From: Acidimicrobiales bacterium
Lineage (GTDB): Bacteria; Actinomycetota; Acidimicrobiia; Acidimicrobiales; SZUA-35
Assembly: GCA_020628305.1 (NCBI GenBank)
Contig: JAHDFH010000019.1
Coordinates: forward strand, 1-32,606
DNA: 32,606 bases
Direction: 5' to 3'
Each line of letters starts with the position of its first letter. The first letter of the stretch is position 1. The notes beneath the pieces were generated by a model that was given only the letters and a program-made list of their open reading frames with translations, searched no databases and was not told the origin of the DNA. Position numbers and translations under genes: made by a program. Of the stretch, positions 25,224 to 32,606 are shown piece by piece.

Positions 25224-25577
25224 ATGAAATACCTACTACTACTTGCAAGTGACCCTGCCGTGGGTCCTCAAACAGATGAGGAGTTAGCTGCAGAGATGCC
25301 AAAGTGGGCGGCACTAACTGAAGAGATGGCTAAAGCCGGAGTGCTACAGGGAGGGGAAGCTCTTCAACCACCAGCCACTGCTACCACCATTCAAGTTCGC
25401 AATGGGGAACGCGTAATTTCAGACGGCCCGTATGCAGAAACTAAGGAAGTTCTAGGCGGTTTCTATCTTATTGAAACAGATAATCTTGATGAGGCACTCG
25501 AGTGGGCGGCCAAAATACCCTCTGCTATCTACGGATCGGTCGAGGTTCGACCTGTATGGGACATTCCCACCACATAG
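25224..25577 (+). CDS. YciI-like (DGPF domain) protein
   Basis: MKYLLLLASDP..., GERVISDGPYAETKEVLGGFYLIE, VEVRPVW; SD GAGAGGAC. Confidence 0.92.
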   Translation: MKYLLLLASDPAVGPQTDEELAAEMPKWAALTEEMAKAGVLQGGEALQPPATATTIQVRNGERVISDGPYAETKEVLGGFYLIETDNLDEALEWAAKIPSAIYGSVEVRPVWDIPTT

Positions 25578-25585
25578 GCCAATCA

Positions 25586-26779
25586 ATGGATATTGCTGAA
25601 GTCTTTGCTAATGAATGGCACAAAATCGTTGCTACCGTCAGCAGAGATTTCGGCGATATCGAACTTGCCGAGGACGCCGCCCAAACAGCTTTCTCCAAAG
25701 CACACAGACTTTGGAGAAGTGGGCTACCCAAAAATCCTGGTGCTTGGCTTACCACAACTGCCCGCAACTATGCCATTGATACCGTGCGGCGATCTAAAAA
25801 CTATTCAGACAAACTTGCTCTGATGAGAGACCAACCAGGCCCTGACGAAGCAAATGAGCTTCTTGACCCTCAATTATCGCTGTTACTTACGTGTTGCCAC
25901 CCGGCCCTAAACCTAGAATCCCAAGTAGCACTGACTCTTAGGCTCGTTGGAGGGTTAACGACCGACCAGATTGCGTCCGCCTTCAGGGTTGACTCCCCAA
26001 CAATGGGTAAGCGATTAACAAGAGCTAAAAACAAGATAAAAGCAGCGGGCATTTCTGTCGACTCAGCCACTCACGAAACATTGCTTGAGCGTGTCGAATC
26101 AATCAGAAATGTCATCTACCTAATCTTCAACGAGGGTTATGCGAGCAACTCAACTAACGAACTCATCAGAGGATCCCTTTGCGACGAGGCACTGTGGTTC
26201 GCTCAGCTTCTCTGCCAGCTAGATCCAGGAGTGAACGAGAATTACGGCCTCCAAGCACTTGTTGCCTTTAATGATTCTCGCAGAAACGCACGCACAGACC
26301 GTGAGGGTCTTCCGGTGCTCTTGGAAGATCAAGACAGAACACTGTGGAACCCAGAAAAAATTGGGCAAGGCGAATCGTGCCTGAGACACTTAAACCGTCA
26401 ACAGCCGTTCGGACCCTACAGTTTGCAGTCGCTGATCTCTTATGAGCATGTCGCTGCAATGTCATTCGAAGATACGAATTGGCAGACAATCTACGATCTT
26501 TACACCCTGCTATTGACTATCGAGCCAAATCCCATAATTCAACTAAATCAGTACGTCGCTCTCAGCTATCTCGAAAACACGCTTGGCGTACTAGACAAGG
26601 TTGAGTTACTAGAAACCGAACTCTCTGACTATCTGTATTGGCATACAACGAAAGCTCAACTTTTTGCTAGAGCTGGCCAGGTCGGCAAAGCAGTCGAGTG
26701 CTACCAAAACGCAGTGGCCCTAACCAGCTCAGAGAGTGAGCACCGATGGATCCGGCGACAGATCGACAAAATGACCTAG
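25586..26779 (+). CDS. ECF-type RNA polymerase sigma factor with C-terminal extension (ECF42-like)
   Basis: Region 2 (DIELAEDAAQTAFSKAHRLW, NPGAWLTTTARNYAIDTVRR), region 4, then C-terminal extension with LIFNEGYASN; next to a YciI/DGPF gene. True start likely 25586, not 25502. Confidence 0.9.
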   Translation: MDIAEVFANEWHKIVATVSRDFGDIELAEDAAQTAFSKAHRLWRSGLPKNPGAWLTTTARNYAIDTVRRSKNYSDKLALMRDQPGPDEANELLDPQLSLLLTCCHPALNLESQVALTLRLVGGLTTDQIASAFRVDSPTMGKRLTRAKNKIKAAGISVDSATHETLLERVESIRNVIYLIFNEGYASNSTNELIRGSLCDEALWFAQLLCQLDPGVNENYGLQALVAFNDSRRNARTDREGLPVLLEDQDRTLWNPEKIGQGESCLRHLNRQQPFGPYSLQSLISYEHVAAMSFEDTNWQTIYDLYTLLLTIEPNPIIQLNQYVALSYLENTLGVLDKVELLETELSDYLYWHTTKAQLFARAGQVGKAVECYQNAVALTSSESEHRWIRRQIDKMT

Positions 26780-26838: not shown

Positions 26839-27192
26839 TTATTGCTCGACTAGATCGTCGAATGATTCTTCGACGATCGTTGCTGGTCCGCAGTCTGCGT
26901 AAGCTTGTGCTTGTTCTGTTGTGAACTCAGTTTGTACCGTTGCAAGATCTGACAAGTTTTGAATGCTCGAAGCAAGTCCTTCAGTTTCGAAAAAGTCTGT
27001 ATAGCACTCCGCCAATTCTGGACGCATACCCGCTTCGTCTATAAACAACGTTTCCAAGCTGCTCAAGACTTCGTCTTCCGTTAGCTCAATCGCCTCAGAA
27101 TGTCCGGTAATACCAGACCCACGAAGCTCTTCGTCATCTGAGCTACAACCAGCTATTAGAAGCGCAAGAACCACAAAACCAAGCTTTTTCAT
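26839..27192 (-). CDS. small acidic lipoprotein
   Basis: MKKLGFVVLALLIAGCSSDDEE: signal peptide and lipobox LIAGC. Confidence 0.8.
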   Translation of the reverse strand: MKKLGFVVLALLIAGCSSDDEELRGSGITGHSEAIELTEDEVLSSLETLFIDEAGMRPELAECYTDFFETEGLASSIQNLSDLATVQTEFTTEQAQAYADCGPATIVEESFDDLVEQ

Positions 27193-27330: not shown

Positions 27331-30300
27331 ATGTCTAGATACACGTATCGAATAATGGAACTACCGATGAGAATTCTCTCTGCGGTTGTTCTACTTGCAA
27401 CAATAATCGTGCCGGTCGGTTCAGCATCTGCTGATGACAACCCGTCAACACAAGACCTCGTGGTTGATTGTGATGTGCGACCAAACGGAACGCCAGTTGG
27501 TCTCGATCAATCAGGTGTGCAGGGTGCAGTACCTGGCGAATGGGTTGACTTCATCCAAGTAGTCGAGTTCGACGAAGGTGATGTATACCAAGACATCCTC
27601 CTGCGACCTGACGGCACAACATACTTTGCTTCTCGTTTAGAACTAACCGCTCTACCTTCAGCTCTTGATGTTGATCTATCTTCGATTGAGTTCCGTATTG
27701 CTCCGGGCTCATCAACTGATCCATTCGCTGACGGTGTTGTACAAACAACTGTTGCCGGAACCGAACCAGATGTAACTGACTGGGTGTTAGACGCAGACGC
27801 ATCTGTTCCGGACACAAAGTACACACTTCTGTTCCCAGGTGACGTAGCAGCAATGACTGCCGGCCAACCAGGGTCTGGTCAGGTTTCTTACACCGTTCCT
27901 GTAGGTGGGGAAAAGTTTGTTCTCTCTTTCCGTGCGCAGATCCCAACCACAGAAGCGTGGGGTTCTGTTCATAAGGGTGCTGAATGTTTTGCATCTGTCT
28001 CTACTGGTGATTCAAACCGTGACTCTTCACGAATTGAATCTGGCGTTTCGGTTTTTGAACCAATCGTCGACATCGACAAATCAACTGCGCTCGCAAACGT
28101 CTACAACTTAGGCAACAACATTGAATACACAATCACAGTTTCTGTTCCAGAAGTTGATCCAGCTAACCCATCGCAAGTAATTGCTCCAGCTAGAGATGTT
28201 ATTGTTACTGACACGATCCCAGCTGGGCTCATTCCCCTTGATGCAAACGGTGACCCTGTACTAGACGGCCAGGTAACTGACGCTGGTGGAGTTTGGAACG
28301 AAGCAACACGAGAAGTCACATACAACGCTGGTGACATTCTTCCAGGTGATGAGGTCCTTATAACTTATGACCTTCGTATGGACCCTGACGCCGGCTTAAT
28401 TCCAACACAGATTCTAACCAACACAGCTTCAGCTGGTTTTAGCTACCTTCCTGCTGGAACCCCTGACAACACAACAGTTACCGACTACGCCACGGATGAT
28501 GCCGATGTAATTGTGGCATCGCTGCCTCCTACAGTTAGCAAAGAAGCGGACATTGAGCGAACCGGTACAGACCTCCCTTATACATACACAGTTACGGTGG
28601 ACATCCCCGAAAATGCTTTGTACGAAAACTTCTCGATCTATGACACACTTCCTGATGGTCTCGAGTTTGTTCAGTACCTAACAGCTGAATGTCTGCCTGC
28701 TGGACCTACTTGTCCTACACCAATTCCAACTCTTACAGAAACAATCTTCCCAGCTGGTGGTACAACAATTGGTTGGTACCCAGACACTATCCCAGCTGAC
28801 CCTAATCCTCGTCAGATTGTGCTCACCTACGAAGCTCAGATTGCCTCAACTTACACCAATGGTGATGAAGTTCTATTCTTCGATGAGTTCACTAACAGCC
28901 TTCAGGTTAAGTGGAACGCTGTTGACCGTCTCGGCGATGTGACACCTAGTACTGCTTCTCAGCCATCTTATGACGGAACAGTCGGTGATGATGATGTTGT
29001 AATCTATGACCGTCCTGTTCTCGACATCGACAAAACTGTTTTAACCACAGACGGCTTTGCCGCCGACGTTGCTCGAGTTGCGTGGGATTATGAGACCGGT
29101 GATATTGCTACCTATACATCTGTAATTACTAACTCTGGTTCTCGTGACGCTACAAACCTTACAGTTACCGACACTCCTGCTGGCCTCGACATTGACGTAA
29201 CAACAGTAACAATAGACGGAGTCCTTTGTGGAGCTGCTTGTTCTTGGGATGGCACTGTACTAACTATTCCAATCGCTGGCCCAATCGCTGCTGGTGGTGG
29301 AACTGCAATAGTCGCATACGACGCAGTCCCAACCCAGAACGGCGATATTGACAACCTTATAGAGATCCCTTCTTACTTTGATGATCTTGGTGTCGGAACC
29401 GAATACCTAGAGAACCCATCTGATGTGGTTCCTTTGAACATTCCAGACCCAGTGTTAACCATTAGCAAGACTCGAGCTGGAGCCACAGACACAATCGCAA
29501 ACACAATCGGAACTACCTATCCGTTTAACATCACCGTCCGTAACACTTCGGCTGTCACTGCGTACTCAGCACAGGTGATTGACACACCGCCAACCGGTAT
29601 CTGTATGGTGGCAAACTCTTTGGCCAATGTTTCAGGAGACTCAACTGTTACTCAGGTAAACGACACAACCTTTGATATTGATGATCCACTCGCTCCTGGC
29701 GAAAGTGTCACATTCGAGGTCACCGTGTTTGTATGTGGACCGCCATCAGTTGACCCTGGAGACTACACCAACACGGTCGACCTAACCTGGGCTGACCTTG
29801 TTGACGGTGTCAACGAAGCTGGTGACGCTTATGCGGCTAGCGACACTGAAACAATCACACTTGTTGGCCCAGAATTTGAGATTGAGAAACTACCTCCAAT
29901 AGATGGTGGGGCGACACTCAACTACACAAATGACGTTAACGAGAACGGCACACTTGAATACTCAACCGCTTCGGGCACCATGGTTTCAACAGAAGTTTCC
30001 TCTGGCGCTTGGACCTTTATCATCAAGAACACATCGCTTGTCCCTATTGGTGGCCTCCAGCTTGATGACCCGCTACCAGACCCTTTCGAATACTTCCCAG
30101 GAGATATTGACACCCAGGCAATCTGGATTGGGCAGGCGCCATCAACCTTTACAGACAACTCGGTTGCTTCTGGAACGACCATCTTAGCTGGACATACAGA
30201 ACAGATTGACTTCACACTCGGGCAGCTAGAACCAGGTGCCGAAGTGAGAATCATTGTTCCTTTTTCTCACAACGGTGAGGACCCATCTGATGGCAATTTG

Positions 30301-32606
30301 ACTCGCCAGAATACAGTAACTGCCCGCAACGACAACCTCACATTCGACCCTGAGCTGCACGAAGCTACAGGTGAATACACACTTATCCCAATAGAAATTG
30401 GCCCCGAAATTTCTAAGACTGTTGAAGCAGCTGGCGTGGTACCAGGTGTCGAGTCAGTTCTCGGAGCGCCAGGACAACAATTCGACTATACAGTCGATGT
30501 TTCTCTACAACAGCATCCGACTCTCTGGAACTATGACCTCTGGTTCTTGGACGAACTTCCTGACGGGCTTACGATTGTAAATGAGCCAACAGCGGGCACT
30601 ATCCCAGCAGCCAGCGGATGGTCAGTCAGCTGTCTAAGTGGTCCGTGTCCCGCAACTGAAGGCGGGGTCTACCTTGGTAGCAACGCCAACCTTGATGGCA
30701 CAACCGACCTTGCATGGTACTTGGGCGACACACCTCCAGACGTTTCTGAAGCAATCTCTGTTTACCGTTTCACTTTCCGTGTTGAGATGAACACAACATT
30801 TATCGATGGTGAAGAAATCATCGATGGCATCAATGATCCGCTAGTGAACACCGCAAAGCCAATCTTCAACCGAGACTTAGGTTCAGGCAACGTTGATTCT
30901 GGACTTCCGGCAACCCCAGGTGTTCCTAGTACCAACGACTATGACCGTGTTTATCCAAAAGATCCAGCGTCGATTGATATTGCAACTCCTCGTCTTGACT
31001 TTGAAAAGAACGTGTACGACGAGAACGACCTCCCTGTGACTGAAATCAACGCAGGTGAAACAGTCTTCTATGAAATCATCGCTACCAACGTAGGTTCTGG
31101 CGCAGCATTCGATATCGATATTCGTGACGACCTTGGTAACCCTGACGGCATTCCCTATATGACTGTTAATAATGCAAGTCTCAATGTAACCCCAGCTGGT
31201 GTTACCTGTAACTTCGTCAACCCACCTGAAGGCGGCCAACGCCTCTTCTGTGAGTTCCCTGGTGGATTAGCAGGAGACCCGGATGGTGCAGGTCCAAGTA
31301 TCGGTGGTCAAATTGTAATCACCTATGAGGCTACAACCGTTCCTGCAGAAGACTTCTACTCACAATTCTCTACTCAGAACTTTGACCCAATGATTCTTAT
31401 CAACCGTGCATTCACCAGCGAATATTGGGAAGCTGCCGGTGAAGGTGGTAACCAATATTCAACTGGTTCCACACTTACTCGACTTTTTGCCTTCACGCCT
31501 GTTCCAGAAGTTGATGCTTTCTGTGTCAACTCAGAAGCCTTCGTCGCTGCAGCACCAGGAAGTCAAGTACAGTTTGGTGTTATCGCAGGTAACGGAGACC
31601 GCAGTGATGTCAATGGCAACCCTGATGGTGACAAGACACTTACTCCACACCCTGTCGAAGACCTCGATGGTGACGGCTACCCAGATGCAGCGTTTGGTTA
31701 CAACCCAGACCTTCGTATAACGATTCAAGATAAGTTCACCTACGTTGGAACACAGGGAACAGGTCCAGGTGCAGGTGATCCAACTTACACCACTTATACC
31801 CCATTCCCAGCCCCAGATCAGATCCTCGATGAGGTTGAGCCAAACACCTACACTCTAGTTTGGAACGACAGCCTTGAAGATATTCCTCACTCTCCAAACC
31901 ACGAGACGCAGGCCGACTTCTTAGCTCACTACCAACTCCTGATTGATGTCATCAAGACTCAAGAGGGTGGTGGAACAATCTGGTTCGAGCTAACCCTCGA
32001 AGATGCAGCGGGTAATACCGACCGTGGTACTGGCGCAATCAACGAGCCATTTGAGCTGATTGAAAAAGACCGAAATGGATGCCCAGGTGGACCTCCACCA
32101 AGAGCAGATAAGTACCCAGATGTTGAAGATGCTGTAAAAATTGCTCCAGGAGCAACAGATGAGTTCACCATCTATATTCAGCAGCCAGATGAAGACTTTA
32201 TGGCTGGTAACTTGGTCGACACTTTACCATTTGGTTTAACGTACCGTGGCGATCTTGCACCCACAGATCCAAACTATGCAGTCGCTACTCTCGAGCAGCG
32301 CAACATCGGTGGTGTGCCTTCAAACTGGACAGATGTTGACGGCAACGGCACGATAGAACTACAAGACTATTTCACTTCATCCACTACTGGAGCAAACGGT
32401 GATACCGCCATTCAGTGGGACCCACCTCCTCTACCTCAAGGTGTCATCAACGATGCTAACAATGGTGGCACTGATACTCGTTGGGTATTGACTGTTCCTG
32501 TTATCGCAGACGATGACCCTCCTTTCCCTAACGAATTTGTTGTTAACTCTTTCTCTTGGAACACCGAGGCGTTTGGTGCTAGGTCTGATACTGGTGCGAT
32601 GCTCAC
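27331..32606 (+). CDS. giant secreted DUF11-like / isopeptide-type surface protein, 3' end beyond the window
   Basis: Open frame read from 27331 to the window end (at least 1758 codons; alternative ATGs 27355, 27367). Signal peptide MRILSAVVLLATIIVPVGSASA. Repeating IDKS/ISKE/IDKT/ISKT/IEKL/ISKT/FEKN ... YTITV ... V.DT.P.GL motifs. Confidence 0.9.
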   Translation, partial: MSRYTYRIMELPMRILSAVVLLATIIVPVGSASADDNPSTQDLVVDCDVRPNGTPVGLDQSGVQGAVPGEWVDFIQVVEFDEGDVYQDILLRPDGTTYFASRLELTALPSALDVDLSSIEFRIAPGSSTDPFADGVVQTTVAGTEPDVTDWVLDADASVPDTKYTLLFPGDVAAMTAGQPGSGQVSYTVPVGGEKFVLSFRAQIPTTEAWGSVHKGAECFASVSTGDSNRDSSRIESGVSVFEPIVDIDKSTALANVYNLGNNIEYTITVSVPEVDPANPSQVIAPARDVIVTDTIPAGLIPLDANGDPVLDGQVTDAGGVWNEATREVTYNAGDILPGDEVLITYDLRMDPDAGLIPTQILTNTASAGFSYLPAGTPDNTTVTDYATDDADVIVASLPPTVSKEADIERTGTDLPYTYTVTVDIPENALYENFSIYDTLPDGLEFVQYLTAECLPAGPTCPTPIPTLTETIFPAGGTTIGWYPDTIPADPNPRQIVLTYEAQIASTYTNGDEVLFFDEFTNSLQVKWNAVDRLGDVTPSTASQPSYDGTVGDDDVVIYDRPVLDIDKTVLTTDGFAADVARVAWDYETGDIATYTSVITNSGSRDATNLTVTDTPAGLDIDVTTVTIDGVLCGAACSWDGTVLTIPIAGPIAAGGGTAIVAYDAVPTQNGDIDNLIEIPSYFDDLGVGTEYLENPSDVVPLNIPDPVLTISKTRAGATDTIANTIGTTYPFNITVRNTSAVTAYSAQVIDTPPTGICMVANSLANVSGDSTVTQVNDTTFDIDDPLAPGESVTFEVTVFVCGPPSVDPGDYTNTVDLTWADLVDGVNEAGDAYAASDTETITLVGPEFEIEKLPPIDGGATLNYTNDVNENGTLEYSTASGTMVSTEVSSGAWTFIIKNTSLVPIGGLQLDDPLPDPFEYFPGDIDTQAIWIGQAPSTFTDNSVASGTTILAGHTEQIDFTLGQLEPGAEVRIIVPFSHNGEDPSDGNLTRQNTVTARNDNLTFDPELHEATGEYTLIPIEIGPEISKTVEAAGVVPGVESVLGAPGQQFDYTVDVSLQQHPTLWNYDLWFLDELPDGLTIVNEPTAGTIPAASGWSVSCLSGPCPATEGGVYLGSNANLDGTTDLAWYLGDTPPDVSEAISVYRFTFRVEMNTTFIDGEEIIDGINDPLVNTAKPIFNRDLGSGNVDSGLPATPGVPSTNDYDRVYPKDPASIDIATPRLDFEKNVYDENDLPVTEINAGETVFYEIIATNVGSGAAFDIDIRDDLGNPDGIPYMTVNNASLNVTPAGVTCNFVNPPEGGQRLFCEFPGGLAGDPDGAGPSIGGQIVITYEATTVPAEDFYSQFSTQNFDPMILINRAFTSEYWEAAGEGGNQYSTGSTLTRLFAFTPVPEVDAFCVNSEAFVAAAPGSQVQFGVIAGNGDRSDVNGNPDGDKTLTPHPVEDLDGDGYPDAAFGYNPDLRITIQDKFTYVGTQGTGPGAGDPTYTTYTPFPAPDQILDEVEPNTYTLVWNDSLEDIPHSPNHETQADFLAHYQLLIDVIKTQEGGGTIWFELTLEDAAGNTDRGTGAINEPFELIEKDRNGCPGGPPPRADKYPDVEDAVKIAPGATDEFTIYIQQPDEDFMAGNLVDTLPFGLTYRGDLAPTDPNYAVATLEQRNIGGVPSNWTDVDGNGTIELQDYFTSSTTGANGDTAIQWDPPPLPQGVINDANNGGTDTRWVLTVPVIADDDPPFPNEFVVNSFSWNTEAFGARSDTGAML

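Follow-up and report, generated by a model that had tools for sequence, protein, structure and literature searches.

The N-terminal part of a probable sortase-anchored surface protein with a stalk of DUF11-type domains in an Acidimicrobiales bacterium

The stretch of DNA analyzed here (the window, 32,606 nucleotides) ends inside a very long open frame. What does this frame encode, and how might its product be held at the cell surface? The window is one whole contig (C71) of an Acidimicrobiales draft genome (G000; 2.36 Mb in 132 contigs). In our reading, the product is very probably a fibrillar surface protein anchored by a sortase, with an isopeptide-locked stalk and a head, and the frame encodes its N-terminal part.

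The open frame, its neighbors and its orthologues

27331..32604, + strand: giant surface protein ORF, 1,758 aa, complete at the 5' end, cut at the 3' end by the contig end
27331..27435, + strand: signal-peptide-like N-terminus (MSRYTYRIMELPMRILSAVVLLATIIVPVGSASAD), called by eye

The frame starts at ATG 27331 and contains 1,758 codons without a stop. Its last base lies 2 bases before the window end. The 3' end is cut because the window end is the contig end, a break in the assembly. The frame is missing from lists of closed ORFs because it has no stop before that point. An earlier note on this DNA had described an uninterrupted frame to the window edge outside its ORF track, and this is what we found, now flagged as open at 3'. 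M1, M9 and M13 are possible start codons. The N-terminus (MRILSAVVLLATIIVPVGSASA/DD) has n-, h- and c-regions by eye and was called a plain putative signal peptide. This agrees with the signal peptide claimed earlier, and the hydrophobic stretch is common to the orthologues.

The genes upstream are ordinary chromosomal genes, among them panB, panC, an LtrA-like protein and an ECF sigma factor. They also include a YCII-like small protein (by eye; 25224-25577), which is followed by the ECF sigma factor, with DUF6596 (25502-26779). A divergent lipoprotein-like gene of 117 aa (MKKLGFVVLALLIAGCSSDD...; 26839-27192, - strand) adjoins the giant gene. A homologue with 63% identity lies directly upstream in L023 as well, and G001 has one about 4.4 kb downstream of the giant orthologue (47% identity). 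From these positions, it may be linked to the giant gene.

Orthologues were searched for in 60 related genomes. The G007 orthologue is 79% identical over residues 2-1468, and its gene is split over two contigs. The G001 orthologue, from the same genus, is complete, with 65% identity and a 4,440-codon frame (about 4,414 aa). G026 (55%), G016 (50%) and G027 (partial, 59%) carry the others. Within its own genome, the search found only the one copy.

The domains and their Lys-Asp-Asn triads

27436..28050, + strand: head region, about 205 aa, without known domain; C47 and C219 invariant; candidate adhesive part
28051..28515, + strand: domain 1, triad K250-D294-N364
28516..29010, + strand: domain 2, triad K404-D438-N522, C454/C461; best TIGR04226 stretch
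29008..29442, + strand: domain 3, triad K568-D614-N675, C633/C637
29443..29865, + strand: domain 4, triad K713-D751-N814, C758/C802; best DUF11 stretch
29863..30390, + strand: domain 5, triad K853-D913-N994; the weakest of the eight by sequence
30391..30981, + strand: domain 6, triad K1029-D1074-N1173, C1101/C1106
30982..31479, + strand: domain 7, triad K1226-D1266-N1358, C1293/C1307
31480..32082, + strand: insert of about 200 aa, lacking the Lys-Asp-Asn triad; candidate disulfide between the invariant C1398 and C1584
32083..32604, + strand: domain 8, triad K1594-D1630-N1739; leave-one-out score above shuffles

The whole protein matches Pfam DUF11 (PF01345) in five stretches (2.6e-24; 86.2 bits versus a cut-off of 24.6). 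Domains 3 and 4 pass this cut-off singly, and domain 1 is just under it with 22.1 bits. The protein also matches NCBIfam TIGR04226 (RrgB_K2N_iso_D2) in four stretches (1.7e-29; 103.1 bits versus a curated cut-off of 30). A profile built from the domains in the window finds 9IFR, a solved DUF11 (CLIPPER) domain, and aligns its Lys, Asp and Asn with theirs. By phmmer, the protein as a whole had no match in the PDB. The model of domain 2 is all-beta with a mean pLDDT of 67 (moderate confidence). Its best solved fold matches (TMq about 0.5) are the pilus backbone proteins RrgB, GBS80 and SpaD, and also 9IFR. A viral fold library gave weak matches only, among them a Tupanvirus DUF11 protein. The D2-type or DUF11 Ig domains proposed in the earlier note are thus borne out by both families and by the CnaA-like Ig fold; domains without such a fold, which it had named as contrary evidence, were not what we saw.

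With leave-one-out profiles, seven of the eight domains score above shuffled sequences. Domain 8 scores 15.5 bits versus at most 12.5 in 200 shuffles. A first profile comparison of domain 8 was partly circular, with domain 8 itself inside the profile, and the leave-one-out test is the one we trust. The score of domain 5 was not above its shuffles; its conserved triad is the one feature that suggests its assignment. The head and the insert show no similarity to the stalk-domain profiles.

The 1,758-aa part contains 20 lysines, and 9 are invariant in the orthologues (relatives from five genera). Seven lysines had been listed earlier as isopeptide candidates. All are in frame at exactly the nucleotides given for them, and the measured spacings (462, 492, 435, 420, 528 and 591 nt) reproduce the claimed range of 420-591 nt. 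All seven are among the invariant nine (hypergeometric p = 4.6e-4 for a chance result), and each has an invariant Asp and Asn downstream. The other two invariant lysines are K1210 and K1594. K1594 (nt 32110) opens domain 8. The earlier list lacked this eighth triad and also the triad-free stretch, about 200 aa long, that separates domain 7 from domain 8. The estimate of 7-9 domains compares with eight in the window and additional ones in the full-length orthologue.

All 24 triad residues (8/8 domains) are invariant in the aligned orthologues. Downstream of the triad Lys, the distance is 34-60 residues to the Asp, which mostly stands in a D-x-LP-like context, and 101-145 residues to the Asn. 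An alignment of the eight window domains with seven L023 domains has only four invariant columns, including the triad Lys and Asn. The order Lys-Asp-Asn is that of the known CnaA/DUF11 isopeptide triad, which in 9IFR is K715-D748-N806 (PMC12617251). The bond is absent from some DUF11 domains (PMC12617251). All 14 cysteines of the window part are also invariant. They make seven plausible pairs. Domains 2, 3, 4, 6 and 7 have one each, the head has another, and the last spans the insert. Disulfides are reported for 41.3% of Actinomycetota isopeptide domains (PMC12617251).

The position of the gene at a contig end could raise the suspicion of an assembly artefact or a decaying gene with chimeric or frameshifted repeats, and the G007 relative breaks inside the same gene. 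We regard this as scarcely credible, given the length of the stop-free frame, orthologues that are co-linear across five genera, its own among them, and conservation that is centered on the triad residues and the cysteines.

The predicted product is instead an exported chain of locked domains. It would be secreted via the Sec pathway, and its Ig-like domains would fold outside the membrane. In each CnaA-type (DUF11/CLIPPER, TIGR04226-like) domain, the Lys of the first strand would join the Asn of the last strand spontaneously, with catalysis by a buried Asp. The result would resemble beads on a string, each locked covalently and several with conserved cysteine pairs. Such a string may act as a stiff stalk that resists protease and force and displays the unique N-terminal head at a distance from the cell.

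Sorting signals and sortases

The G001 orthologue continues for about 2,680 residues past the window end with more DUF11-type domains. It ends in LPKTG-SSLLDSLLVYAAILLTAGVAIKVVSRRRLRKS (LPKTG-hydrophobic-RRRLRKS), so the early stop just past the window that the earlier note had considered is not expected. The probable G007 continuation ends in LAFTG-hydrophobic-RFRRRAEA. In the C-terminal third of the G001 orthologue (L024), within its last 1,000 residues, seven CxCDxxDPxxWP...DPSHYYG repeats lie behind the DUF11-type domains. Close to the wall-proximal end, these repeats are possibly a site for disulfides or a metal.

The G000 assembly was searched for the missing part. With the C-terminal 2,690 aa of the orthologue as query, matches were confined to the level of repeats, and most of them were to a different protein. 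The last 201 bases of the window matched only themselves, as did the last 41 bases with 3 mismatches allowed. The 3' end of the window copy was not found in the assembly, and its anchor is therefore one that we infer. The LPxTG or sortase anchor that the earlier note had proposed to look for was found in relatives, in sibling proteins and, as sortases, in the genome, but not on the window copy itself.

G000 contains two sortases (PF04203) over the cut-off. One is class-E-like (best model class E, 159 versus a cut-off of 160) and one is class-F-like (best model class F, 121 versus 166). Sortases were found in all five relatives, with two to four each. The class-E-like sortase may join the missing C-terminus to the cell wall via an LPxTG/LAxTG-type signal.

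Seven other closed DUF11-type frames of G000 end in xxFTG (L/I-A/S-FTG), a hydrophobic stretch and a basic Arg/Lys tail. This small genome (2.36 Mb) is rich in DUF11 surface proteins (C49, C53, C59, C65, C92, C97, C108 and C2), most with xxFTG signals. C2 ends and C59 starts in an open frame (L039 and L035), and both frames contain VPVYDVSLIKTRSAGQPY. The two contigs are therefore probably adjacent, with a single DUF11 giant across the junction that ends in IAFTG. The xxFTG giants (e.g., G000:C92, 3,357 aa) share DUF11 repeats, a sorting signal and the same cell with the window protein. They differ in that its head and N-terminal stalk domains have no detectable similarity to them.

The protein could in principle be a subunit of a polymerized pilus shaft (RrgB/SpaA-like) joined by a class C sortase and not a single-chain stalk. 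The window protein resembles the RrgB-type pilus backbone (TIGR04226, which is named after RrgB D2; 2X9Y, 2Y1V) in its four TIGR04226 stretches and in the fold of domain 2, for which the best matches are pilus backbone subunits. However, the orthologue has about 4,400 aa and more than 20 domains per chain, far longer than shaft pilins. Class C was the best model for neither G000 sortase, and no class C sortase was found in the genome. No pilin or sortase gene lies beside the giant gene within the window. A pilus shaft is therefore very unlikely.

The head region and the role of the stalk

A single-chain stalk raises the question of what it carries. Residues 36-240, the head, match no Pfam or NCBIfam family and no known adhesive domain. 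The head model (AlphaFold, two sequences) had a pLDDT of 38 and was unusable. C47 and C219 are a disulfide candidate. The head was found in 5 of 39 genomes of the family, from four genera, and it is 57-76% identical in relatives. Among 397 genomes of the phylum, one other, distant match was found (38%, in another order). From this distribution, the giant gene is patchy and lineage-bound. The distant relative (L055; G260:C31:6001-6552), from another order of the class, lies inside a 2,231-codon frame.

The same stalk could serve without adhesion, as a structural or sheath/S-layer-like coat fiber or as a cell spacer, with the N-terminal region merely capping the fiber. The N-terminal region has no recognized binding domain, the genome encodes many further DUF11 surface proteins, and DUF11 proteins have been proposed as archaeal S-layer parts (PMC12617251). 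A specific head nevertheless fits better with a region that is well conserved, that has an invariant cysteine pair to itself and that accompanies the stalk in only a few genomes of the family. We consider a coat or spacer improbable, though the most serious of the alternatives.

The earlier reading as a stalk-like adhesin or cell-surface giant holds for the DUF11-type stalk domains and for the anchor in relatives, but the protein has no recognized ligand-binding domain and its role as an adhesin is something we infer. As a tentative and rather unlikely proposal, residues 36-240 may be an adhesive domain of a kind not yet described, almost exclusive to this Acidimicrobiales family and carried on a stalk of more than 20 domains. 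In the same proposal, a triad-free, disulfide-held joint (residues 1384-1584) would interrupt the isopeptide-locked domains as a defined hinge.

The type of protein is already described, as DUF11/CLIPPER stalk proteins (PF01345; 9IFR; PMC12617251). Like these, the window protein is a long secreted surface protein with tandem CnaA-like domains, an equal Lys-Asp-Asn order, co-occurring disulfides and, here in the orthologues, a Gram-positive-type sorting signal. It differs in that only some of its eight domains pass the cut-off singly, the rest being longer or nearer to TIGR04226, and in that its head is not a known adhesive domain. In the literature searched, we found nothing on adhesins of the DUF11 or sortase type from Acidimicrobiia/Acidimicrobiales. 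The poorly studied Acidimicrobiales gain a clear case of a giant isopeptide-stalk protein, one whose full-length orthologue can be traced. Sequence alone suffices to call the positions of its cross-linking residues. Its head is an unannotated family and a candidate recognition module open to binding tests.
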